Below are positions 13,543 to 25,488 of a stretch of DNA of 64,000 nucleotides, one piece after another. Every line of letters starts with the position of its first letter. Position 1 is the first letter of the stretch. The position numbers and the translations under genes were made by a program. The notes below the pieces were generated by a model. It was not told the origin of the DNA. It searched no databases and saw only the letters and a list, made by a program, of their open reading frames with translations. The DNA is from Meiothermus sp. Pnk-1 (lineage in GTDB: Bacteria > Deinococcota > Deinococci > Deinococcales > Thermaceae): NCBI RefSeq assembly GCF_003226535.1, contig NZ_QKOB01000007.1, positions 1-64,000 on the forward strand, given 5' to 3'.

Positions 13543-14334
13543 TTACCCCGCCCTGGATGCGGTTCGCTCGAGCTCGGCGGCTTGGTACTTCAGCCCCTGG
13601 CGCTCCAGGTGCTGCAAGAAGTCCTTCGGTGCGCCCTCGTCGGTGATGAGCAGGTCGATCTCCTCCAGCGCGGCGAAGCTGGCCAGCGTCGCCCGCCCCA
13701 GCTTGCTGGAGTCCACCAGGGCGTAGGCGGTGTCCACCGACCGGATCATGGCCTGCTTGGTCTGGGCCTCGTAGGGGTTGGGGGTGGTGTAGCCCTTGAC
13801 CGCCGTAACCCCGGTAGCGCTCATAAAAGCCTTGTCGGCGTGGTAGACCTCCAGGGTCCGCACCGCCGCCGGGCCGATCAGGGCCATGCTGTGGTGGCGC
13901 ACCTGCCCGCCCAAAAGCAGCAAATCCCAGCGGGTCTCGGAGAGCTCGAGGGCGATGGGCACCGAGTTGGTGATGACGTAGAGCGAGCGAAACCGGCGCT
14001 TCATCAGCTGGGCCAGCACCAGCGTGGTGGTCCCGGCATCGAGGACGAGGGTGTCGCCCTCTTCGATATACTCCAGCGCCGCCTGGGCGATGGCCTGCTT
14101 TTCCGCCTGCTGAAGGTGGATTTTTTCGCGAAAAGAGGGGTTGAACAGGCTTTTGTGCGCAGCGGTGGCCCCGCCGTGGGTGCGGTGCAGCAGGCCGCGG
14201 CCCTCGAGCTCGGTGAGGTCTTTGCGTATGGTGACGTGGCTGACCCCAAAGAGCCCGACCAGCTCGTCCACCTGCACCGAGCCCTTCCGTTCCAGGAGCT
14301 CGATGATCTTGCTACGCCGATCCTCGGTTTTCAT
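13543..14334 (-). CDS. iolR: DeoR-family regulator of the inositol genes
   Basis: A 263-residue DeoR-type repressor. The N-terminal winged helix-turn-helix reads VQVDELVGLFGVSHVTIRKD, followed by GLLHRTHGGA. The C-terminal sugar-phosphate sensor domain has VLDAGTTTL and YALVDSSKLGR. It is the last gene of the inositol cluster, 55 bases after iolB. In Bacillus the DeoR protein IolR is induced by 2-deoxy-5-keto-gluconate-6-phosphate, the product of IolC; the same logic is likely here. ATG 14334 is chosen because it gives the normal N-terminus, with an in-frame ATG at 14376 as alternative. The name is inferred from context. Confidence 0.82.
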   Translation of the reverse strand: MKTEDRRSKIIELLERKGSVQVDELVGLFGVSHVTIRKDLTELEGRGLLHRTHGGATAAHKSLFNPSFREKIHLQQAEKQAIAQAALEYIEEGDTLVLDAGTTTLVLAQLMKRRFRSLYVITNSVPIALELSETRWDLLLLGGQVRHHSMALIGPAAVRTLEVYHADKAFMSATGVTAVKGYTTPNPYEAQTKQAMIRSVDTAYALVDSSKLGRATLASFAALEEIDLLITDEGAPKDFLQHLERQGLKYQAAELERTASRAG

Positions 14335-14389: not shown

Positions 14390-15238
14390 TCATCCCCCTT
14401 CCGAGCGGCCCCCCACGGGCAGCCTCAGCGGCTTCCCCGCCCAATCCTCCCGCATCCAGCCCCAGTCGGGGTCGTCCACGGGCGGTGTGGCCCGGGCCTC
14501 GCCGAGGGCTTCGCCGGCCATGTAGTTGAGGTAGTAGACGTTGGACCCGGGCGGCGCCACAACCGGATGATAACCCCTGGGCGCGAGGATCAGGTCGCCG
14601 TCTTTGGCCAGCAGAAGCTCGTCCAGGCCGTCTTCGGGGCTGTAGTTGCGGTGGATGGCCCAGCCGGTCTTAGGGCTGATCCTGTAGTAATAGGTCTCCT
14701 CGATGTACAGCGAGCCCATGCGCCCGTCGTGGCGGTGCGGCGGCCAGCCCGACCAAAAGCCCGAGGGCGTGTAGACCTCGTAGAGCAGCAGGCGCTCGGC
14801 GGGAAGGTGTGGCCCCAGGATGTGCGACACCTGGCGCAGCGCGTTGGCTCCCCCCCGCATCTCCACGCGAATTTCCTCGGGCCTGAACAGCCGCACGGGA
14901 TAGCGTCCCTCCGCGGGGGCCCCCCCCAGGGCAAACTCGGCCTCCGTAAGCGCCTGGACCAGGTATTCGGTGCGCGGCGGCAGGTACAAGACCGAGGGCA
15001 GCTCGGAAAAGACATCCTGGCGCTTTAGCGCGAAGGAGCGGGTCCCGACCTCGACCCGTATCTCCCCCGATAGCGGCACCAGGGCCACCTCCCGACCGTC
15101 GGAGCTGCCCTGCTGGGTATGGCCCGCCGGAAGGGCCACGGCCTGGAAGGAGAGGTACTTCCACCCCGCCGAGGCCGGGTTCACCTCGACGAGGCTCCCC
15201 ACGCCCGAGCGGGGCCTGCGGTGGTTGGGCGAGCTCAT
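14390..15238 (-). CDS. iolB: 5-deoxy-glucuronate isomerase
   Basis: A 282-residue KduI/IolB-fold protein that isomerises 5-deoxy-glucuronate to 2-deoxy-5-keto-gluconate in inositol breakdown. Diagnostic segments are GWPPHRHDG, with the metal-binding His pair, then SLYIEETYYYRI and the C-terminal PRGYHPVVAPPGSNVYYLN. The long upstream extension of the frame is spurious: ATG 15238 overlaps the stop of the upstream dehydrogenase (ATGA), a sign of translational coupling. Its length agrees with IolB proteins (about 270 residues). Confidence 0.94.
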   Translation of the reverse strand: MSSPNHRRPRSGVGSLVEVNPASAGWKYLSFQAVALPAGHTQQGSSDGREVALVPLSGEIRVEVGTRSFALKRQDVFSELPSVLYLPPRTEYLVQALTEAEFALGGAPAEGRYPVRLFRPEEIRVEMRGGANALRQVSHILGPHLPAERLLLYEVYTPSGFWSGWPPHRHDGRMGSLYIEETYYYRISPKTGWAIHRNYSPEDGLDELLLAKDGDLILAPRGYHPVVAPPGSNVYYLNYMAGEALGEARATPPVDDPDWGWMREDWAGKPLRLPVGGRSEGG

Positions 15239-16239
15239 GCGATCTCCTCCAGCCGCACGGGGCGCCCCTCTTTGAGGCTCCTGGTCGCCGCCAGGGCGAT
15301 GCGCAACGACTCTATGGCGTCTTTGGGGCCCGGCGTGGGCGGCTTGCCGGTGGCCAGCGCCCGGAAAAAGGCCTCGAGCTCGAGGCGGTAGGCTTCCTTG
15401 AAGCGGTCCATGAAGAAGTGGTAGTGGTCGGCCCTGACCCCGCTGCCGTACTGCCACAGAGGGGTCTTGGGGGTGGCGTCCATCACCAGCTTGCCCCCGG
15501 AGCCGAAGACCTCGGTGCGCACGTCGTAGCCATACACCGCGCGCCTGGAGTTCTGGATGACCCCCAGCGCGCCGTTCGCGAAGCGCAAGGAGAGGTTGGT
15601 GGTGTCCACGTCGCCGATCTCGCCGATTCTGGGGTCTACCCGCACCGCGCCCCAGGCGTGGACCTCCTCTACTTCTCCAACCAAAAAGCGCGCGCAGTCG
15701 ATGTCGTGGATGGACTGGTCGATGAAGATGCCCCCCGAGCCCTGGAGGTACTCGAGGGGGGCCGGAGCCGGGTCGCGCATCACCGCGATGAACTGCTCAA
15801 CCTCCCCGATCTCCCCCGCCTCGATCTTTTCCTTGGCCTGGTGGTAGGGCGGGTCGTAGCGGCGCTGGAAGCCGATCTGGAAGGGCAGGCCTTTTTGCTC
15901 CACGACCCCCAGCACCCGCCGGGTCTCCCCCAGGTCCTTGGCCACGGGTTTTTCGCAGAAGATGGCCTTGCCGGCTTGGGCCGAGAGCTCGATGTAGCGG
16001 GCGTGGGTGTCGGTAGGCGTGACGATGACCACCGCCTCCACGCCGGGGTGGTGGATGGCCTCCTCGGGGTCGGCGTAGATCCTCTCCGCCCGCAGCAAGC
16101 CCCTGGCCGCCTCCGCGGCCTGGGCATTGGGATCGGCCACCGCCAGCACCCGGGCCTCGGCCACGCCCAGCATGGTACGGGCGTGTTCCATGCCCATCCG
16201 TCCTGCACCCAATAAAGCGACGCCATAGGTCTTACCCAT
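15235..16239 (-). CDS. iolG: Gfo/Idh/MocA inositol dehydrogenase-like oxidoreductase
   Basis: A 334-residue NAD(P)-dependent oxidoreductase. The Rossmann motif is VALLGAGRMGMEHA, the conserved Lys lies in CEKPVAKD, and the second catalytic region contains DQSIHDIDCARFL with the His/Asp pair. In this operon it most likely oxidises myo- or scyllo-inositol to an inosose. Close relatives include IolG, IolX and IolW, so the exact isomer is uncertain. ATG 16239 follows CCCGGAGGTTCAC, a clear ribosome binding site; the frame upstream of it is discarded. It is the only dehydrogenase in the cluster. Confidence 0.82.
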   Translation of the reverse strand: MGKTYGVALLGAGRMGMEHARTMLGVAEARVLAVADPNAQAAEAARGLLRAERIYADPEEAIHHPGVEAVVIVTPTDTHARYIELSAQAGKAIFCEKPVAKDLGETRRVLGVVEQKGLPFQIGFQRRYDPPYHQAKEKIEAGEIGEVEQFIAVMRDPAPAPLEYLQGSGGIFIDQSIHDIDCARFLVGEVEEVHAWGAVRVDPRIGEIGDVDTTNLSLRFANGALGVIQNSRRAVYGYDVRTEVFGSGGKLVMDATPKTPLWQYGSGVRADHYHFFMDRFKEAYRLELEAFFRALATGKPPTPGPKDAIESLRIALAATRSLKEGRPVRLEEIA

Positions 16240-16256
16240 GTGAACCTCCGGGTTGA

Positions 16257-17258
16257 TCAAAACCCACCCCTCGAGCGGATGAACTCGAGCACTTCGTCGA
16301 GATACGGGGCAAAGTCCGCACAGCCGATCCGGGTCACCACGATGGCTCCACAAGCGTTGCCCATGCGCGCACTCTTGTACCAGTCCCAGCCCTGCAAGCG
16401 CCCGTAGATCAAACCCGCCGCAAAAGCATCCCCCGCACCCAGCACGCTGAGCACTTCCACCTCGAAGCCCGGGGCATTCACCACGCTGCCGTCCGGCAGG
16501 TACACATCGGCCCCCCTGGCCCCCCGTTTGACCACCAGGGCCTCTCCCCCCCTGCCCAATAGCGCCCGGATGTTGGCCTCCACATCGCCTTGGATTTCCG
16601 GCGCGGTGATCTGCGAGTGGCGGATGGTGATGTCCTCGGCCCGGCGCAGCATGGCCGCGTTGACCTCCTCCTCGGTGCCGATGGCCACATCCACCATCGG
16701 CAATAAGGCGCGGATCTGCACCCCATAGGCGCGGGGGTCGTGCCAGCCGTCGGCCCGAAAGTCGAGATCCAAAAAGACCGTGACCCCCGCGGCCTTGGCC
16801 TGTTCGGCGGCAAAAAAGGTGGCGCTGCGGCTGGGCTCTTTGGCCAGGGCAAGCCCAGAAAGCTGCACGGCCTTGGCCTGGGCAATGGGCGTATTGAGCA
16901 CATCATCGATCGAAAGCTGGATGTCGGCGGCGTTCTCACGGTAGAAGGTGATGGGGAATCTATCCGGAGGCTCGATGCCCAGCAGCACCGCCGAGGTGCG
17001 GGTTCCGGGCTTTTGCGGGATGAAGCGGGTCTCCACCCCTTCGCGCTTGAGCCTCTCGACGATGAACTCCCCTATTTTGTCCTCCCCCACCGCCGTCAGC
17101 AGCGCGGCCTTGAGCCCAAGGCGGCTGGCCCCGACCGCGATGTTGAGCGGGCTCCCGCCGATGTAGGCCCCGAAGGTACGGATATCGGGAAAAGGGGCCC
17201 CGATGTCGTTGGAGTACAGGTCGATGGAGGAACGCCCGATGGTGATGAGGTCGTACAT
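16257..17258 (-). CDS. iolC: 5-dehydro-2-deoxygluconokinase
   Basis: A 333-residue PfkB-family kinase. The N-terminal part has GAYIGGSPLNIAVGASRLG and the C-terminal PfkB signature is LGAGDAFAAGLIYGRLQ, which carries the catalytic Asp. IolC phosphorylates 2-deoxy-5-keto-gluconate, and its product is the usual inducer of the pathway. The opening MYDLITIGRSSIDLYSNDIG is characteristic of IolC rather than of ribokinase or KDG kinase. It lies 10 bases from iolE and 17 bases before the dehydrogenase gene. Confidence 0.94.
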   Translation of the reverse strand: MYDLITIGRSSIDLYSNDIGAPFPDIRTFGAYIGGSPLNIAVGASRLGLKAALLTAVGEDKIGEFIVERLKREGVETRFIPQKPGTRTSAVLLGIEPPDRFPITFYRENAADIQLSIDDVLNTPIAQAKAVQLSGLALAKEPSRSATFFAAEQAKAAGVTVFLDLDFRADGWHDPRAYGVQIRALLPMVDVAIGTEEEVNAAMLRRAEDITIRHSQITAPEIQGDVEANIRALLGRGGEALVVKRGARGADVYLPDGSVVNAPGFEVEVLSVLGAGDAFAAGLIYGRLQGWDWYKSARMGNACGAIVVTRIGCADFAPYLDEVLEFIRSRGGF

Positions 17259-17268
17259 GCCTATCCCC

Positions 17269-18195
17269 TCAGTACCCCGTGACCTGGCGCAGGTACTCGC
17301 GGTTGCGCCTGGCGCTCTCTTTGGGCTCGCCCATGCCCGGCAGCACGTCCTGCTCCACCGTGATCCAGCCGTCGTAGCCCAGCGAAATCAGCTTGCGGGT
17401 CACCGCAGCGAAGTCGATCTGGCCCTTACCCAGTTCGCAGAACACCCCGCGCCCGACGGCCTCCTTGTAGTTCCAGCCTTTGCTGCGGGCTTCGCCGGCG
17501 ACGACGGGGTGGCAGTCTTTGTAGTGCACGTACCATATGCGCCCCCAGAAGCGCTCGAGGCCCGCGAGCACCGCTTCTGGCTGGTTGGTGCCCGTTCCGT
17601 AGAGGTAGTGCCCGGTGTCGAACACCAGCCCAATGACGGCGCCGTCGGTGTGCTCGAGGAAAGCCTCGATCTCCCAGGGCGCCTCCACGTACCCCGCCGA
17701 GTGGTGGTGGAAGACCGTGCGCAAACCCGTCTCGTCGTAGACGGCCCGGGCGATGCGCATGGCCCCCGCGGCAAAGGCCTTCCACTGCTGGGCGCTGAGG
17801 CCCAGCTCAGGCCGGATACGCCCGGCGTTCTCGAAGCGCACCGGGTCGCGGCTGTGCTCATCGGCCAGCACCACCAAGGGCTGCCAGCCATCGCCCACCT
17901 CGGCCACGCTTTTCAAGAGGCGGGCCGTGCGCAGCACGCGCGCTTCGCCCGCGGTGTGTTCGCTGGGCTCGAGCAGGTAGACCCCTTCGTAGGCCCCCAG
18001 CATGGTCAGGCCGCGCGAGGTAAGCTCCAGCCGCAAGCGCTCGGGTTCGGTGGGCATGTAGCCAAAGTCGCCCAACTCGGTGCCACGGTAACCGGTTTCT
18101 ACCAGCTCATCGAGCATTTGCGCGTAGCCGATGCCCTGCCCCCACCCCTCGATGGTGCCCCAACTGCACGGTGCATTGCCGAAACGGATAGCCAT
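17269..18195 (-). CDS. iolE: Myo-inosose-2 dehydratase
   Basis: A 308-residue TIM-barrel protein of the AP-endonuclease-2 superfamily. The opening RFGNAPCSWGTIEGWG is a signature of IolE. Metal-binding regions are seen in GTELGDFGYMP, VFHHHSAGYVE, LVFDTGHYLYG and WITVEQDV. It dehydrates scyllo-inosose (2-keto-myo-inositol) to the trihydroxycyclohexane-dione that IolD hydrolyses. The gene lies between iolD (29 bases) and iolC (10 bases), as in many iol operons. Confidence 0.94.
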   Translation of the reverse strand: MAIRFGNAPCSWGTIEGWGQGIGYAQMLDELVETGYRGTELGDFGYMPTEPERLRLELTSRGLTMLGAYEGVYLLEPSEHTAGEARVLRTARLLKSVAEVGDGWQPLVVLADEHSRDPVRFENAGRIRPELGLSAQQWKAFAAGAMRIARAVYDETGLRTVFHHHSAGYVEAPWEIEAFLEHTDGAVIGLVFDTGHYLYGTGTNQPEAVLAGLERFWGRIWYVHYKDCHPVVAGEARSKGWNYKEAVGRGVFCELGKGQIDFAAVTRKLISLGYDGWITVEQDVLPGMGEPKESARRNREYLRQVTGY

Positions 18196-18224: not shown

Positions 18225-20102
18225 TCAGAAATAGCGCCGCTGCTTCTTCAGGTAGGCCTCGTACGCCTCGCGGGCCTTCCTGACCGCAGGCTGGCCCGAG
18301 ACCTCGGCCACCGGCACGTCCCACCAGCTCTCGAAGCCCGGCAGGCGGTCGTCTACACTCACCGCAACCACGATCACCCGCACGCCCCTGGCTTTGCGGG
18401 CCTCTTTGAGGGCTTCTGCCAACTCGCGGTAGTTCCTGGGGCTCCACACCGTCGCCCCCATGGCCCTGGCGTGGGCGGCGAAGTCCACGGCCACCGGGGG
18501 GCCGTCGGTGCGGCCCGTCCTAGCGTCGCGCCGCCGCAGCTCGTTGTTGAAGGAGGGCGAGCCCAACGACATCTGCAGGCCGCGAATCGAGCCGAAGGCC
18601 CGGTTGTCGATCAGCACGACCGTAAAATCCAGCCCCTCGGCCACCGCGGTGACGATCTCCGAGTTCATCATCAGGTAGCTGCCGTCCCCCACGAAGACCA
18701 CCACCTCGCGCCCCGGCTCGGCCAGCGCCACCCCCAGCCCGGCGGGAATCTCGTAGCCCATGCAGGAGAAGCCGTACTCGAGGTGATAGGCCTTGGGGTC
18801 TTCACAGCGCCAGAGCTTGAGCAGATCGCCCGGCAGGCTCCCCGCCGCGCAGATCACGGTGGCCTTGCCGCCGAAGGCCTCGCCCACCAGACCGATGACC
18901 TCGGCCTGGGCCATCTCCTTCTTCTCGGGCCGGGGGGTACGGTACTCGCTCACCAGGGCGTCCCACTCCCGCTTGAGCCGGGCGACCTCTTCGCGGTAGG
19001 GGGCCGAAGTGCCCGCGAAGCCCTCGAGGGCCGCGGTCAGGGCCTCGAGCCCGCGCCGGGCATCGGCCACCAACGAAACCCCGGAGAGCTTACCGGCGTC
19101 GAAGGGCACCACGTTCAACCCGACGAACTTCACCTCCGGGTTCTGAAAGGCGGTCTTGGAGGCGGTGACGAAGTCGCCCAACCGCGTGCCGATGGCCAGG
19201 ACCAGGTCGGCCTCACGGGCCAGGCGGTTGGCGGCGGTTCCCCCGTTTGCACCCACCGGGCCCACGTTCATGGGGTGATCCCAGGGCAAAGCCCCCTTGC
19301 CCCCCTGCGACTCCGCTACCGGAATGCCGTAGGCCTGGGCAAAAGCGGCGAGCTGGGTGTGGGCTTCGGCGTAGAGCGTGCCCCCTCCGGTCACGATCAG
19401 CGGGCGTCTGGCCCTGCGGATGAGCTCGGCCACCTGTTCCAGCACCTCCGGCTCGGGTGTGGGGCGGCGGATGCGCCAGACCCTGGGGGCGAAGAACGCC
19501 ACCGGCCAGTCGTAAGCCTCGGTCTGCACGTCCTCGGGCAGGCAGAGGGTGACCGCTCCGGTCTCGGCGGGATCGGTGAGCACCCGCATGGCCTCGGGCA
19601 GCGCGGAGAGGAGCTGGGAGGGCCGGGTGATGCGGGTGAAGAAGCGGGAGAGGGGCCGGAAGGCGTCGTTCACGCTCACGTCGTGCTCGAGGGGGTGCTC
19701 GAGCTGCTGCAGGACGGGATCGGGCAGGCGGCTGGCGAAGTAGTCGGAGGGTAGGAGCAACACCGGCAGGCGGTTGACGGTGGCGGTGGCCGCGGCGGTG
19801 AGCATGTTGGTGGAGCCCGGCCCCACCGAGGCGGTGCAGGCGAAGGTGGACAGGCGGTTTTTGTGCTTGGCATAGGCGATGGCCGCGTGCACCATGGCCT
19901 GTTCGTTCTGGGGTCGGTAGGTGGGTAGGCCCACCGCGTCGCCGTACTCCTCCAAAGCCTGCCCCAGGCCAGATACGTTGCCGTGACCGAAGATGGCCCA
20001 GACCCCCCGGATGAGGCGCTCTTCTCTCCCGTCTCGCTCCGCGAACTGGGCGGCCAGGAACTTGACCAGGGCCTGGGCGACGGTGAGGCGAAGGGTACTC
20101 AC
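18225..20102 (-). CDS. iolD: 3D-(3,5/4)-trihydroxycyclohexane-1,2-dione acylhydrolase
   Basis: A 625-residue thiamine-diphosphate enzyme that opens the inositol-derived ring to 5-deoxy-glucuronate. N-terminal features are IFGHGNVSGLGQAL and YRPQNEQAMVHAA, with the catalytic Glu in the latter. The C-terminal TPP-binding motif is VFVGDGSYLMMNSEI followed by VVLIDNRAFGSI. GTG 20102 is preferred over the longer frame because GGAGG lies seven bases ahead of it. A strong promoter at 20314-20343 lies 212 bases upstream, so iolD probably opens a transcript iolD-iolE-iolC-iolG-iolB and perhaps the regulator. Confidence 0.94.
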   Translation of the reverse strand: MSTLRLTVAQALVKFLAAQFAERDGREERLIRGVWAIFGHGNVSGLGQALEEYGDAVGLPTYRPQNEQAMVHAAIAYAKHKNRLSTFACTASVGPGSTNMLTAAATATVNRLPVLLLPSDYFASRLPDPVLQQLEHPLEHDVSVNDAFRPLSRFFTRITRPSQLLSALPEAMRVLTDPAETGAVTLCLPEDVQTEAYDWPVAFFAPRVWRIRRPTPEPEVLEQVAELIRRARRPLIVTGGGTLYAEAHTQLAAFAQAYGIPVAESQGGKGALPWDHPMNVGPVGANGGTAANRLAREADLVLAIGTRLGDFVTASKTAFQNPEVKFVGLNVVPFDAGKLSGVSLVADARRGLEALTAALEGFAGTSAPYREEVARLKREWDALVSEYRTPRPEKKEMAQAEVIGLVGEAFGGKATVICAAGSLPGDLLKLWRCEDPKAYHLEYGFSCMGYEIPAGLGVALAEPGREVVVFVGDGSYLMMNSEIVTAVAEGLDFTVVLIDNRAFGSIRGLQMSLGSPSFNNELRRRDARTGRTDGPPVAVDFAAHARAMGATVWSPRNYRELAEALKEARKARGVRVIVVAVSVDDRLPGFESWWDVPVAEVSGQPAVRKAREAYEAYLKKQRRYF

Positions 20103-20313
20103 GCCCTGACCTCCAGTCCCGGCAAGATGCGGAGTGCCCAAAGCCCGGCGCGGTCATGGTTTCGCTTTTGCCCTTTCATATCTCCCCCTGAACTCCTGCA
20201 CCCTGACTGCACAGCCGGTCTCGAGCGGCTAACCTGCCGCCAGGCATCGCCAAAAAAGAACGGACCCGCTGTGCGGCTGGCTACGAAGACGCCCTGGCCA
20301 GTCGGTAGTCGGT

Positions 20314-20343
20314 ATTCTAAGAAGCTCGGCTTTCGTATGTCAA
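20314..20343 (-). promoter_or_regulatory. Promoter for iolDECGB with CGAAA half-sites
   Basis: Read on the minus strand, TTGACA (20343-20338) is followed after 18 bases by TAGAAT (20319-20314), close to the sigma-A consensus. Half-sites surround it: TTTCG at 20331-20335 in the spacer, and CGAAAG at 20360-20365 and 20371-20376, two direct copies 11 bases apart just upstream. The remainder of 20103-20418 holds no gene that I can support. The CGAAA sites are proposed operators of the DeoR-type repressor. Confidence 0.75.
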
Positions 20344-20418
20344 TATTACTGGGCCATAGCGAAAGAAAAGCGAAAGCTTCATCTTTCATTTCAAATCCGA
20401 CCATCGCCCCTCTGCCCC

Positions 20419-21225
20419 TCACCCGAGCAGCAAGCCCTGGAGGGCCCTGAACCCGCGGATTGCCACCTGCTCAGGGTCTTCCTTCCACAGCGCTTCGTTG
20501 AAGGTCTCCAAGCTCCACGGCCCGTCGAAGCCGCTCGAGCGCAGCTCCTGGAGGTAGCGCTTCAGGGGAATCCGCCCCTCCCCCGGAAGCACCCGGTCCC
20601 CATCCTCGATGGACATACTCGCGGGCCGGGCGCAGTCGTTGAGGTGGACCAGGCGCAGGCGGTCGGCGGGGAAATCGCCAAAGCTGCTCCCTGAGGCATA
20701 CACGTGGCAGGAATCCGGTACGAAACCGATCTCGGGAAGGGAGCGCGCGAGCTCGAGGGCTTTGGCGGAGGTATTCACCGGGCACTCGGCGAAGCCCAAG
20801 AACTCGAAGCCCAGCTCGATACCGTATGGTTTCGCAGCCGCCTGAGCCAGGGCCAAGCCCTCGCGCAGGCCCTCAAGCGCGGCCTCGAAGGAAACACCCC
20901 TAGCCCGCAGCGGGACGACCAGCAGCAGCCCCGCGCCCAAGGCCGCAGCGATGTCGAGCAGCTCGGGCAGGTCGGCTTCGAGCTTCCTGGTGTCGAGCCT
21001 CCCGCCGGGCAGAGATTGAAGCCCCAGGCCGTTGAGGCTCACGACCCTCCCGCCTCCCGACCTCAAAGCGGATACCGTCGCCTCGAGCTCGCTTTTGTTG
21101 TCCTTGTCCCGCAGGCGCTCGGCCCTGGCCTCGATGCCCGCAAAACCGGCTTTGAGGGCCACCTCGAGCTGACGCGGGGTGGGGGTGGTCATGAGGGTCG
21201 CGCCGTTCAGATACGGTTCGTTCAT
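20419..21225 (-). CDS. iolI: Inosose isomerase-like sugar epimerase
   Basis: A 268-residue TIM-barrel protein resembling IolI along its length. Corresponding segments are NGATLMTTP, VVSLNGLGLQ, LLVVPLRA, KPYGIELGFEFLGF followed by CPVNTSA, GFVPDSCHVYASGS and EDGDRVLPGEG. IolI interconverts inosose isomers, allowing growth on D-chiro-inositol and related cyclitols. It is located 19 bases after the second permease gene, at the end of the transporter transcript and separated from iolD by a promoter region. Confidence 0.85.
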   Translation of the reverse strand: MNEPYLNGATLMTTPTPRQLEVALKAGFAGIEARAERLRDKDNKSELEATVSALRSGGGRVVSLNGLGLQSLPGGRLDTRKLEADLPELLDIAAALGAGLLLVVPLRARGVSFEAALEGLREGLALAQAAAKPYGIELGFEFLGFAECPVNTSAKALELARSLPEIGFVPDSCHVYASGSSFGDFPADRLRLVHLNDCARPASMSIEDGDRVLPGEGRIPLKRYLQELRSSGFDGPWSLETFNEALWKEDPEQVAIRGFRALQGLLLG

Positions 21226-21243
21226 AGGGGTCTCTCCAAAGCC

Positions 21244-22089
21244 TTATTTCTCGCGGATCACCCCGAAGGTGAGCCCCGCCAACACGTAGCGCCGGGCCAG
21301 GATCATCAGGATCAGGGGAACCAGCAGGGCGATCAGCCCGGCTGCGGCCATCTCGTTCCAGATCAGGTTGAACTGGGTAACGAAGGCCTGCACGCCCACC
21401 GGGAAGGTCTGGGCCCTGGGGGTCTGAGTCAGGATCAGGGCAAACAAAAACTCGCTCCAGGCGAAAGCGAAGATGATGATGCCCGCCGCAAGCAGCCCAG
21501 GGGCAATCAGCGGCAGCACCACCCGGAAGAACGAGACGGGCCGGGTCGCACCGTCGACGAAGGCGGCCTCCTCGAGCTCTAAGGGCACTTCGGCCAGGAA
21601 GCTCTTGAGCATCCAGATGGAGAAGGGCAGGTTGAAAAGGGTGTAGATGAACACCAGGGCCAAAGGGTTGTCGTAGAGCTGGAGGGTGCGCACCACCCCG
21701 AAATAGGGCACCACCACCGCCACCGGCGGCAAAAAGCGCAGGCTCAAGGCCCAGTTCAGCACCCCCACCCGCAGCCTCCTCGAGACCGGCAGACGGGTGA
21801 TAGGGTAGGTGATCAACAGGCCCAGGGTGAGCGTGGTCAGGACCGTGGCCCCGCAAACCAGCACGCTGTTGCGCAGGAGCTTCCAATTACCCTTTTCCAC
21901 CAGCACGGTGTGGAAGGCCTCGAGGGTGGGGGCCTGGGGCACCAGCGTGGGCACGATGTGGCCCAGCAGCTCGCCCTGCCCCTTGAGCGAGGTGGCGACC
22001 AGCCAGTACAGCGGGAAGAGGTAGACCAGCCCGAAGGCTACCAGAACCGGTAGGGCAACCACCCGCCAGAGCAAAGCACGCCCGCGCAT
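21244..22089 (-). CDS. ABC sugar permease, MalG type
   Basis: A 281-residue inner-membrane permease with six predicted membrane segments and the cytoplasmic EAA loop EEAAFVDGATRPVSFFRVVLPLIAPG near residue 190. ATG 22089 overlaps the stop of the first permease (TGATG), which excludes the longer upstream frame. Together with the next two genes it forms a CUT1-family importer, here inferred to carry inositol. No ATPase gene is present, so a shared MsmX-type ATPase elsewhere probably energises it. Confidence 0.93.
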   Translation of the reverse strand: MRGRALLWRVVALPVLVAFGLVYLFPLYWLVATSLKGQGELLGHIVPTLVPQAPTLEAFHTVLVEKGNWKLLRNSVLVCGATVLTTLTLGLLITYPITRLPVSRRLRVGVLNWALSLRFLPPVAVVVPYFGVVRTLQLYDNPLALVFIYTLFNLPFSIWMLKSFLAEVPLELEEAAFVDGATRPVSFFRVVLPLIAPGLLAAGIIIFAFAWSEFLFALILTQTPRAQTFPVGVQAFVTQFNLIWNEMAAAGLIALLVPLILMILARRYVLAGLTFGVIREK

Positions 22090-23015
22090 CAGTCCCTCTC
22101 CAGCGGCAACAGTCGCGTGATGAACGAGTATAGCAGGCTGATCCCCACCATCACCATCACCGCTAGGGCCGCCGCCTCGCCGGTGTCGAAGAACTTGAAG
22201 GCGATGCGGTAGAGGTACAGCGACAGCAACTGGGTAGTGGTCCCCGGCCCCCCGCCGGTGAGGATGAAGACGTGGTCGAAGACCCGCAGCACGTCGGCCA
22301 GGCGGAAGAAGAGGATCAGCAGTAGTAGGGGCCTCAGGTAGGGCAGCTCGATGTGCCAGAACTGGCTCCAGGAGGTAGCGCCGTCCACCTGGGCGGCCTC
22401 CACCGACTCCCTGGGCACCGTCTGGAGCCCGGCGAAGAGCACCAGGTACACGAAGGGCGTCCACTGCCAGATGTCCACGCTGGCCACGGCGAGCATGGCC
22501 GTGTAGGGCTGGCCCAGCCAGTTGATCTCCTGGTGAATCCAGCCCGCCATGATCAGCAGGTGGTTCAGCACCCCGTAGTTGGGGGCATAGATCAGGCGGA
22601 AGATCACCCCCACCGCCACCGGCGGGATGACGATGGGGGTGATCGCCAGCAGGTACAGCACCAGCTTGAGCCAGCTCGAGCGCACCGTGCGGTGCACCAG
22701 CAGCGCCAGCAACAAGCCCAGCACGATCTCTAAGGGCAGCACGATTGCCGCGTAGATGGCCGTCTGCTTGAGAGAGGCGTACAGCAGGGGGTTCTCGAGG
22801 CTGCTCTGGTAGTTCAAAAGGCCCACGAACTTCCCCCCACGGGTAGCCGTGACCGACTGCACCAAGGCCACCGCGAAGGGATAGGTGACGACGCAGAAAA
22901 TCACCCCCAGCACCGGGAAGAGCATCCAGTACGCTAGGCGCTCCTGGCGGCTGAGGCCCCCGCGCCCCCCTTTGCGGGGGAGCGCGGGATGCATTGAGTC
23001 ACCGAGGTTGGCCAT
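22089..23015 (-). CDS. ABC sugar permease, MalF type
   Basis: A 308-residue permease with six hydrophobic segments and an EAA motif at VEAAQVDGATSWSQFWHIELP. The cytoplasmic N-terminus is short and polar (MANLGDSMHPALPRKGGRGG). It starts five bases after the binding-protein gene ends and is translationally coupled to the second permease. CUT1 permeases of this type import mono- or oligosaccharides and polyols; the inositol assignment comes from the surrounding iol genes. Confidence 0.93.
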   Translation of the reverse strand: MANLGDSMHPALPRKGGRGGLSRQERLAYWMLFPVLGVIFCVVTYPFAVALVQSVTATRGGKFVGLLNYQSSLENPLLYASLKQTAIYAAIVLPLEIVLGLLLALLVHRTVRSSWLKLVLYLLAITPIVIPPVAVGVIFRLIYAPNYGVLNHLLIMAGWIHQEINWLGQPYTAMLAVASVDIWQWTPFVYLVLFAGLQTVPRESVEAAQVDGATSWSQFWHIELPYLRPLLLLILFFRLADVLRVFDHVFILTGGGPGTTTQLLSLYLYRIAFKFFDTGEAAALAVMVMVGISLLYSFITRLLPLERD

Positions 23016-23019
23016 CGCC

Positions 23020-24309
23020 TCAGTACCCGGCCTTCTTCATGATGGCGTCGATCTCGCTACAAGCTTTCTGCATGGCCTGCTCGGCGGTCTGCTGCCCGGC
23101 CAGGGCGGCGTTGAGGTTGGTGCCAATGGAGGTCTCCACCGCGTTCCACTGGTCGGTGCGGGGCCGCCAGTTGGGCCCGGAGGCCAGCGAGTCGGCTAGG
23201 GCGGCGAAGTAGGCATGCTTCTGGCTCATTGCCGGGTCTTTGAGGATGCTCAGGCGCGAGGGGATGCCCCCGGCATCGACATAGGCCTTCTGGGTGCTGG
23301 GCGAAATCAGCCACTTGATGAAGTCGGCGGAGGCCTTGGCGTTGGGCGAGCCCTTGGGGATGACCAAAAGCCAGTTGCCCATCATGCCCCGGCCCGGCTG
23401 CCCGTTGGGGCCCCCGGGCATTTTGATGTAGGCCAACTTGCCGATGGTCTTGGAGACTTTGGGGTTTTCGGTAAAGCCCGTGACCTCGCCGGGCCAGATG
23501 GTCGACTGATGGCCCTGGCCGGTCATCAACAAGCGCGAGCGGTCGGCAGCGTCGGTGTTCTCCGGTCCGCTCTGGGCCACGGCCTTTAGGTCCTTGACCA
23601 GGAAGTTGGCGGCCCGCACGGCGTTGGCCGAGGTCAGGGTGCACTTCCAGTTGTTGTCGAAAACATCCCCGCCGAAAGACCACAAGATGGGCAGCCAGTC
23701 GGCCACGATGGGGTTGGTGGCCGCGCCGCGGATCACGTAGCCGGCGTAGCCCGGCTTGTTGAGCCGCCTGGCGGTGTTGAGCACGTCCGTCCAGGTGCGG
23801 GGGGCAGCGGAGTTGTCCTTGCGGTAGGTGAACAGCTCCACGTTGCCCACGATGGTCATGCCGTAAAGGCGCCTTTGCTTGTTCCTCTCTGAAGGGGGAA
23901 CCGGCCCTTTGGGAGGAGGCCAGGTGCCCACGTCGTAGACCACTGAAGGGATGTCCGGATCACGGGTGAAGCCCAGCGCATCGAGCGGCTCGAGCCAACC
24001 TTCGGTGCCGAACTTAGGCATCCAAGGATCGTCGATCATAGCCATGTCGATGGTCTGACCCCCAGCCTGGAACGTCGTCACCAGCTTTTCGTAGAGTTGC
24101 GGATAGGGGCTTTCGACGATCTCGAGCTTGATCCCGGTCTCCTTCTCGTACATCGGAGCCACCGCCTTTAGACCCAAATCCTCGTCCCCCGCCACCGCAG
24201 CGATCACCAGCTTGGCAGGCTTAGCCCCCTGGCCTTGTCCCAGCATTAAACTCAGACCCAAAAGTCCTAGAATAGCTAATAGCCCCAATACTTTCGCCCT
24301 ATACTGCAT
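23020..24309 (-). CDS. Extracellular sugar-binding protein (probable inositol receptor)
   Basis: A 429-residue family 1 solute-binding protein. It has a basic start and hydrophobic signal peptide (LGLLAILGLLGLSLMLG), then LVIAAVAGDEDLGLKAVAPMYEKETGIKLEIVE and a conserved WPGEVTGF region. ATG 24309 follows GAGGAGGTGGAC, an excellent ribosome binding site, so the 31-residue upstream extension is rejected. A consensus promoter lies 73 bases ahead. It is the first gene of the transporter-iolI transcript. Confidence 0.92.
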   Translation of the reverse strand: MQYRAKVLGLLAILGLLGLSLMLGQGQGAKPAKLVIAAVAGDEDLGLKAVAPMYEKETGIKLEIVESPYPQLYEKLVTTFQAGGQTIDMAMIDDPWMPKFGTEGWLEPLDALGFTRDPDIPSVVYDVGTWPPPKGPVPPSERNKQRRLYGMTIVGNVELFTYRKDNSAAPRTWTDVLNTARRLNKPGYAGYVIRGAATNPIVADWLPILWSFGGDVFDNNWKCTLTSANAVRAANFLVKDLKAVAQSGPENTDAADRSRLLMTGQGHQSTIWPGEVTGFTENPKVSKTIGKLAYIKMPGGPNGQPGRGMMGNWLLVIPKGSPNAKASADFIKWLISPSTQKAYVDAGGIPSRLSILKDPAMSQKHAYFAALADSLASGPNWRPRTDQWNAVETSIGTNLNAALAGQQTAEQAMQKACSEIDAIMKKAGY

Positions 24310-24363
24310 GTCCACCTCCTCAAAAGCGCACTGGTGACGACAACGCATCAAAGAGGTTTGATG

Positions 24364-24410
24364 TTTCGTTGTTGTTTCGATATTATATTTATTCGAAATC
24401 AAAATGTCAA
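24364..24410 (-). promoter_or_regulatory. Consensus promoter of the inositol transporter operon with operator half-sites
   Basis: On the minus strand TTGACA (24410-24405) and TATAAT (24387-24382) are both perfect and separated by 17 bases. TTTCG occurs on the plus strand at 24364-24368 and 24375-24379, direct repeats 11 bases apart, and ATTCGAAAT spans 24391-24399 between the boxes. A promoter this strong is presumably held by a repressor; the same half-site and 11-base period occur ahead of iolD. Confidence 0.85.
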
Positions 24411-24486
24411 CTTAGGCTTTTCTCAAGTAAATACTCAGATATCGTTGAAAAGCCAAAGATTGACCCTCAAATAGAAAGGTCTCGAG

Positions 24487-24501
24487 GTTTCGAATCGAAA
24501 C
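24487..24501. promoter_or_regulatory. Perfect palindromic CGAAA operator-like site
   Basis: GTTTCGAATCGAAAC is a perfect inverted repeat (six-base arms, three-base centre) built of the same CGAAA half-sites seen near both iol promoters. It lies about 77 bases upstream of the transporter promoter and ten bases downstream of the gpsA stop codon, so it could serve as a distal operator. Confidence 0.55.
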
Positions 24502-24510
24502 TAGCGAGTT

Positions 24511-25488
24511 CTACTCCGGCTTGGCCTCTCTTCCCATCAACTCGGATAGCTCCTGCCGGGGGTCCGCCCCCTCGTAGATGACCTGATACACCGACTCGGT
24601 GATGGGCAGTTCGGCCTCGGTTTGCTTGCCCCAGGCATGCAGCGCCTTGACCGTGTAGATGCCCTCCACGGCTTGCTTCTGGGCCTCGAGGTCGGCCAAG
24701 CTGACCCCTTGGACGATCCTCTCGCCCGCCCCGCGGTTCCTCGAGTGGGGGCTGGTGGCCGTGGCCACCAGGTCGCCCAGCCCGGAAAGCCCGTAGAAGG
24801 TCTCGGCCTCGGCCCCCTGGGCCACGCCAAACCTCACGATCTCGCGCAAGCCGCGGGTCACCAGGGCAGCCCTGGCGTTATCGCCCAGCCGCAACCCGTC
24901 CGACATCCCGGCGGCCAGGGCGATCACGTTCTTGAGCGCCCCGCCCAGCTCCACCCCGATCAGGTCGTCGCTGGTATAGACCCGGAAGCTGGGGCCGGCG
25001 AAGACCTGCTGCACCAGCCGCGCCAGCCCCTCCTCTGCCGCAGCGGCCACGGCGGCGGCGGGCAGGAAACGCCCCACCTCCTCGGCGTGGTTAGGGCCGG
25101 AGAGGGCCGCCACCCGCGAAACTCCGGTGATCTCGCGGATCACCTGGGTCATGCGCAACAGGCCGCCTTCGCTGTACTCGAGGCTCTTGACCGCGGAGAC
25201 ATAAGCCGGGGCCAGGGGAAGCGCGGCCAGGGTAGCGCGCAAGCCTTTGGAGGGGATGGCCACCACCGCAAGCTCGGCCTCCCAGAGGGCTTCCTGGGGA
25301 TCGGCGGTGGGCCGGATCGCCGGGGGCAGGACTACCCCCGGCAGGTAATCGCGGTTTTCCCGCATCGCCACCAAGGCTTCGGCCTGCTCGGCCCGCCGGG
25401 CCCACAGCGCAACCTCGTTCCCGCGGCTGGCGGCGAGAACGGCCAGCGCGGTACCCCAGGCTCCCGCACCAAGGACAGCGATCTTCAT
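24511..25488 (-). CDS. gpsA: Glycerol-3-phosphate dehydrogenase [NAD(P)+]
   Basis: A 325-residue enzyme reducing dihydroxyacetone phosphate to sn-glycerol 3-phosphate for phospholipid synthesis. The N-terminus MKIAVLGAGAWGTALA is the cofactor fold. SGPNHAEEVGRFLPAA and GVELGGALKNVIALAAGM (catalytic Lys) are conserved, as is FYGLSGLGDLVATATSPHSRNR. It follows the SpoIIM-like gene by six bases, suggesting co-transcription. Length and motifs fit GpsA throughout. Confidence 0.96.
   Translation of the reverse strand: MKIAVLGAGAWGTALAVLAASRGNEVALWARRAEQAEALVAMRENRDYLPGVVLPPAIRPTADPQEALWEAELAVVAIPSKGLRATLAALPLAPAYVSAVKSLEYSEGGLLRMTQVIREITGVSRVAALSGPNHAEEVGRFLPAAAVAAAAEEGLARLVQQVFAGPSFRVYTSDDLIGVELGGALKNVIALAAGMSDGLRLGDNARAALVTRGLREIVRFGVAQGAEAETFYGLSGLGDLVATATSPHSRNRGAGERIVQGVSLADLEAQKQAVEGIYTVKALHAWGKQTEAELPITESVYQVIYEGADPRQELSELMGREAKPE

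Follow-up and report, generated by a model that had tools for sequence, protein, structure and literature searches.

Introduction

Bacillus subtilis IolR is a DeoR-family protein that acts on tandem 11-mer direct repeats. The present analysis concerns putative operators of another DeoR-family protein, encoded in an inositol (iol) gene cluster of Meiothermus sp. Pnk-1 (genome of 3.51 Mb, assembly GCF_003226535.1), at positions 1-64,000 of contig NZ_QKOB01000007.1; this whole stretch of 64,000 nucleotides is called the window. The half-sites under study, TTTCG and its reverse complement CGAAA, are different in sequence from the 11-mer consensus of B. subtilis IolR. The available part of PMC5504672 describes IolR as a repressor of both the iol operon and an inositol transporter gene, antagonised by the product of IolC.

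A match in sequence comes from rhamnose metabolism. According to the accessible portion of PMC3870299, sites of the DeoR-family protein RhaR are direct repeats with a 10-11 bp period, and RhaR of Chloroflexus aurantiacus, which controls rhamnose genes, binds tandem TCGAAA in electrophoretic mobility-shift assays and is released by L-rhamnulose. As far as that text goes, RhaR resembles the proposed window system in that a DeoR-family protein governs a local sugar operon of a thermophilic bacterium, with a half-site and a period that match the window sites, but differs from it in its rhamnose genes and its release by L-rhamnulose, the window cluster being one for inositol. Escherichia coli AgaR, also of the DeoR family, is said in the available excerpt of PMC5018945 to bind tandem repeats. 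AgaR is the best NCBIfam model for the window regulator (205.5 bits), but the score is under the 260-bit cut-off and the cluster serves inositol, not N-acetylgalactosamine. The regulator therefore receives no curated name; 13 NCBIfam models matched it, all below their own cut-offs, and none is an inositol regulator. Co-regulation of inositol transport and catabolism is described, in the accessible parts of the reports, for the IolR proteins of Caulobacter, called a new class and linked to the palindrome GGAA-N6-TTCC (PMC2597717), and of Thermotoga, a member of the ROK family (PMC3750489); on these descriptions both belong to protein classes other than that of the window regulator. A search of the open-access literature returned no report of a TTTCG/CGAAA operator and nothing on Meiothermus together with inositol and a DeoR-family regulator. 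By analogy with these systems, the window putatively holds a known kind of switch (CGAAA-type half-sites, 10-11 bp period, DeoR family) in a new place.

Promoters and half-sites of the inositol locus

Two minus-strand promoters of the cluster, P1 and P2, share TTTCG/CGAAA half-sites, and there is good reason, from sequence comparison, to regard these as likely operators for the DeoR-family protein whose gene spans 13543-14334. P1, which precedes the catabolic operon, is very probably an operator-promoter of this protein; P2, which precedes the ATP-binding cassette (ABC) transporter genes, probably answers to the same regulator. The elements are as follows.

20314..20343, minus strand: P1, promoter of the iolD-iolE-iolC-iolG-iolB-regulator operon, TTGACA-18-TAGAAT (11/12 of the consensus), from the promoter scan and the same layout in relatives
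20331..20335, minus strand: CGAAA half-site in the -35/-10 spacer of P1, 2 bases past TTGACA
20360..20375, minus strand: TTTCG-N6-TTTCG direct pair, 16 bases upstream of the P1 -35
24364..24379, minus strand: CGAAA-N6-CGAAA pair, beginning 2 bases past the P2 -10 and lying across the expected transcription start
24382..24410, minus strand: P2, promoter of the ABC transporter, perfect consensus TTGACA-17-TATAAT (12/12), from the promoter scan
24394..24398, minus strand: TTTCG half-site in the P2 spacer
24487..24501, no strand assigned: palindrome GTTTCGAATCGAAAC, just downstream of gpsA, with an uncertain link to iol

Both promoters and the 11-base TTTCG pairs are present where a preliminary description of this DNA had placed them, and its claim that P1 and P2 have CGAAA/TTTCG half-sites in common is supported. 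Half-sites start at 20331, 20360 and 20371 near P1, with an isolated one at 20160, and at 24364, 24375 and 24394 near P2. Read on the minus strand, P1 consists of TTTCG-N6-TTTCG-N16-TTGACA-TA-CGAAA, the rest of the spacer and TAGAAT, and P2 of TTGACA-N6-TTTCG-N6-TATAAT-AT-CGAAA-N6-CGAAA. The spacer of each promoter contains one inverted half-site; the direct pair lies upstream at P1 and across the expected start at P2. A scan of 13 kb gave three promoter-like sites, 1.4 being expected.

Exact pairs are rare. TTTCG-N6-TTTCG occurs twice in the window, at P1 and P2 (shuffle mean 0.06, with 2 reached in 1/100 shuffles), and four times in the whole genome, where the backwards pattern occurs 20 times; the remaining two copies lie in an 80-amino-acid reading frame and in a TatD-family gene. 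Judged by exact pairs outside coding sequence, the regulon consists of P1 and P2 only. When each intergenic region was shuffled alone with its dinucleotide content kept, the 11-base pair arose in 8/5000 (P1) and 11/5000 (P2) cases, and the half-site counts of 4 (P1) and 5 (P2) were reached in 38/5000 and 35/5000. The genome-wide pair searches and those for a wider regulon covered exact half-sites and would have passed over any weaker ones.

Conservation of the P1 layout in relatives

At E 1e-100, 14 of the 50 genomes of the family, Pnk-1 among them, gave an iolD match. The motif TTGACA-NN-CGAAA, first spotted by eye in the upstream regions of relatives and searched for afterwards, was sought on both strands of 15 sequences totalling 244 kb (the iolD loci of 13 relatives, the locus of G013 and 14 kb of the window). 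It occurs once on the operon strand in each of 13 of these sequences, Thermaceae loci comprising the window and 12 relatives, and never on the opposite strand; it was not found in L035 and L036, both Thermus-like (g4) loci, of which L036 spans only 2.2 kb before iolD. The gene that follows it is iolD in the window and the binding-protein gene of the inositol locus in the 12 relatives, assigned to Peripla_BP_4 by Pfam in two of them and by near-identical starts in the other 10.

Thirteen promoters, one per genome, were aligned on the -35, with a second, degenerate copy before the own iolD unit of G011 excluded. The distal TTTCG, at -32, is exact in nine and shifted by one base in four (L024 also having a mismatch), and the proximal TTTCG, at -21, is exact in seven, has one mismatch in two and is shifted or degenerate in four. 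In 8/13 promoters, including that of L031 with its one-base shift, both upstream half-sites are exact and 11 bases apart. The whole layout is also specific: the composite pattern TTTCG-N6-TTTC-N17-TTGACA-NN-CGAAA, with at most two mismatches, has nine matches in the 50 genomes, all at inositol-locus promoters, and one in the reversed control. Eight of the nine are in genomes with iolD; the ninth, in G013, where no iolD was found, precedes the same binding-protein gene and has gpsA-like sequence upstream. Six of the 14 iolD genomes are missed by the pattern, four through one-base shifts, the other two being the g4 loci.

An equal frequency of such pairs elsewhere and a loss of the half-sites in related species had been named beforehand as the grounds on which the proposal would fail; for P1 it withstands both tests, with four exact pairs genome-wide and the layout described above, and the relatives also keep a DeoR-type gene at the operon end.

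The upstream pair of P1, some 50-70 bases before the expected start, is exact at an equal distance in 7/13 aligned promoters, a regularity that would suit an activator recruiting polymerase from this pair. Such a role of the regulator appears very improbable. The best conserved half-site sits inside the -35/-10 spacer, the P2 sites cover the start, and P1 and P2, being near-consensus, should need no activator; moreover, in the accessible part of PMC8579813, DeoR-family sites that overlap promoters or leaders are read as repressor sites.

The layout also recurs farther afield, in L092, a Deinococcales metagenome-assembled genome whose regulator is 66% identical to that of the window. It carries TTTCGTTTCGCTTTCG-N5-TTGACA-CT-CGAAA directly upstream of iolD, with the pair 11 bases nearer to the promoter than in the window. 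Since the displacement is exactly 11 bases, the phase is kept, which may mean that helical phase, and not distance, couples operator and promoter; L092 is a single case, in which the exact step could be chance. Among 80 of 91 loci listed, 67 have DeoR relatives but lack two iol genes detectable at the score cut-off, and the 11-base pair occurs in none of these 67, so that they extend nothing; for several Thermaceae loci among the 80, the 10 kb flank stops short of the operon promoter that these contigs are known to contain.

The cluster and its DeoR-family regulator

The minus-strand gene order is gpsA, P2, the substrate-binding protein, two permeases, a TIM-barrel protein, P1, iolD, iolE, iolC, iolG, iolB and the regulator gene.

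24511-25488, minus strand: gpsA, read from its translation
23020..24309, minus strand: ABC substrate-binding protein of SBP_bac_1 type (Pfam match)
22089..23015, minus strand: ABC permease (matches below the named cut-offs)
21244..22089, minus strand: ABC permease (matches below the named cut-offs)
20419..21225, minus strand: xylose-isomerase-like TIM-barrel protein (PF01261)
18225..20141, minus strand: iolD (TIGR04377, above cut-off)
17269..18195, minus strand: iolE (best match TIGR04379, below its cut-off)
16257..17258, minus strand: iolC (TIGR04382, above cut-off)
15235..16245, minus strand: iolG (TIGR04380, above cut-off; the open reading frame scanned was a longer version, to 16353)
14390..15238, minus strand: iolB (TIGR04378, above cut-off)
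13543..14334, minus strand: DeoR-family regulator (HTH_DeoR and DeoRC), proposed binder of the half-sites, from its domain matches and its conserved neighbourhood

The true start of iolD is probably nearer to 20106, judged from where matches to relatives begin. Two side observations concern gene content in relatives: the iolD match in L014 (G002:C3:112211-114112) contains one in-frame TGA, and between iolC and iolG there are 0.83-0.92 kb, room for one gene, at L026 10760-11589 and at the same place in L027-L030, with no such space in the window.

That the cluster encodes a DeoR-type regulator is borne out by domain matches above the curated cut-offs, to PF08220 (HTH_DeoR, 71.3 bits, cut-off 21) and PF00455 (DeoRC, 170.2 bits, cut-off 31.8). 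Linkage of the regulator gene to the iol operon, as for IolR, is seen in the window and in 11/13 loci of relatives, where the gene follows iolB (the L031 copy being cut by the contig end); the remaining two, L033 and L036, end before the position of the regulator. Its HTH is largely invariant among nine aligned proteins. Imperfect direct repeats with a period of 10-11 bp, as described for the DeoR-family protein RhaR, are present as the pairs at P1 and P2 and, in exact form, in 8/13 aligned P1-type promoters, the binding itself being proposed.

Several observations weigh against this assignment of the half-sites. The regulator is proposed as their binder from its neighbourhood and from family precedent, and the genome contains four other DeoR-family genes, five DeoRC proteins in total. 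One paralog, at C3:248356, has TTTCG-N5-TTTCG, with a 10-base period, just before its own start (L006:1251-1265 = G000:C3:248106-248120), perhaps its own operator. The 11-base spacing is not enriched genome-wide, where TTTCG-N0..30-TTTCG occurs 165 times, or about 5.3 times per spacing; the evidence therefore lies in the location of the pairs and in their conservation. In the alignment, L024, L027 and L032 have a degenerate proximal half-site upstream, and the spacer half-site is present in 13/13 promoters by construction, since the pattern by which the rows were chosen demands it, the fair figure being 13/15 sequences. The Thermus-like (g4) locus L035, whose regulator is 56% identical, has degenerate sites only. 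P2 is arranged unlike P1 and has no relatives for comparison, and a sister genome, G001, keeps TTTCGATTCGAAACC beside gpsA while having no iolD hit.

Because the paralog at C3:248356 also has TTTCG-N5-TTTCG, CGAAA-type sites may serve more than one protein, and with five DeoRC proteins in the genome the half-sites might be bound by a different paralog, or by some other regulator that recognises CGAAA-type sites, while the cluster protein binds elsewhere. This appears improbable: the site of the paralog has a 10-base period, the regulator gene accompanies the operon in most relatives' loci, as counted above, and the composite P1 pattern has matches at inositol promoters only. The difference in spacing, 10 against 11 bases, might help to keep the regulators apart, although this is a guess.

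P2 and the apparently exchanged transporter

The SBP_bac_1-type binding protein of the window was found in one of the 50 family genomes (Pnk-1 alone) at E 1e-40, and its nearest plasmid-borne relatives are ~35% identical; P2 consequently rests on its own sequence. The transporter at 20419-24309 differs from those of the iol loci L024-L032 and L034, in which the first gene encodes a Peripla_BP_4-type binding protein. From this comparison, the iol locus seems to have swapped its transporter while both neighbours, gpsA and iolD, stayed in place. The prediction, made in the preliminary description, of a joint regulon of transporter and catabolic operon holds in part: half-sites are shared by both promoters and the P1 layout is conserved, but P2 is without comparative support.

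Taken together, these features allow a tentative and rather doubtful account, in which a resident repressor captured a foreign ABC transporter beside gpsA, a new perfect-consensus promoter was built from the same half-site in a new layout, the old architecture was kept before iolD, and helical phase couples the operator to the promoter.

The palindrome downstream of gpsA

The palindrome at 24487, listed with the half-sites in the preliminary description, cannot be counted as an iol operator, because G001, a genome without any iolD hit, keeps it downstream of gpsA. G001 also has no relative of the window binding protein at E 1e-40. An alignment of 2026 bases between the two genomes, with 89% identity, stops within two bases of the palindrome (L174, window 24485), and in the next ~17.5 kb of G001 no further similarity to the window was found. 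All 15 bases of the palindrome agree, although the stretch separating it from the gpsA stop differs between the genomes, which hints at selection. In G001 the palindrome might be the remnant of an iol locus that has been lost, conceivable because gpsA lies upstream of iol in the loci of five relatives (L024, L025, L027, L032 and L043), or it could be a separate element; by itself it is weak evidence. Two further observations were made on G001: the sequence just past the palindrome looks, by eye, like a broken transposase frame, and gpsA matches in two overlapping pieces, suggesting a frameshift.

These findings bear on whether P1 is the sole true operator, with the P2 half-sites and the palindrome being coincidence in A+T-rich spacer DNA or leftovers. 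Both the confinement of the P2 binding protein to Pnk-1 and the persistence of the palindrome next to gpsA in G001, which has no iolD hit and whose similarity to the window stops right after the palindrome, would fit such a view. It is nevertheless unlikely in the light of the P2 shuffles, in which, dinucleotide content being kept, the 11-base pair and the five half-sites were as infrequent as reported above.

Wider regulon and leader sequences

Pairs had also been anticipated ahead of iolA, iolJ or msmX-like genes elsewhere in the genome. No exact 11-base pair was found at the iolA-like locus or at two MalK-type loci, iolJ not having been searched for: the iolA-like gene at C3:395732 has single half-sites in the 610 bases around its start and no 11-base pair, and the loci of PF17912 MalK-type ATPases, L084 and L085, have no 11-base pair.

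A separate observation concerns the transporter transcripts of ten relatives (L024-L032 and L043), which start with a conserved GACC...GGTC inverted repeat, its arms 10 to 12 bases apart, just past the -10 (for example L026:2965-3047). Two of the eight predicted pairs show changes on both sides. Folding gives a 12-pair hairpin in L026 and L031 and nothing better than shuffles in L024. The repeat is possibly a leader RNA element; Rfam searches of nine 3-kb loci and of the window gave no match to it. The pattern GACCTNAGAN{3,8}GGTC occurs at 40 places in 26/50 genomes, nine of the 40 being these leaders, and is not specific alone, since its reversed control gives 86. One other close look-alike that was examined, L050, is coding. 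By eye, no hairpin was seen after P1 of the window, and the leader hairpin therefore lies outside the finding on P1 and P2.

Proposed mechanism

In the mechanism proposed here, the regulator would bind direct repeats of the half-site, paired at a period of 11 bases or about one helical turn, and, once bound, would block RNA polymerase. At P1 the half-site in the -35/-10 spacer would exert the block, aided by the phased upstream pair; at P2 the spacer half-site would do so jointly with the direct pair that covers the start point. Inositol breakdown would then yield a phosphorylated intermediate, most likely the product of IolC as for B. subtilis IolR, that releases the regulator, and this release would turn on the transporter and the catabolic operon together.

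Significance for Meiothermus and its relatives

The general picture of how DeoR-family regulators act is unchanged by these results. What they offer is a model, open to testing, of the operators that would control inositol use in Meiothermus, Calidithermus and their relatives, together with a compact, conserved signature, TTTCG-N6-TTTCG-N16-TTGACA-NN-CGAAA, that is usable for regulon annotation. If P2 is confirmed, the locus would also show cleanly how a transporter acquired anew can be drawn into a local regulon that was already in place.

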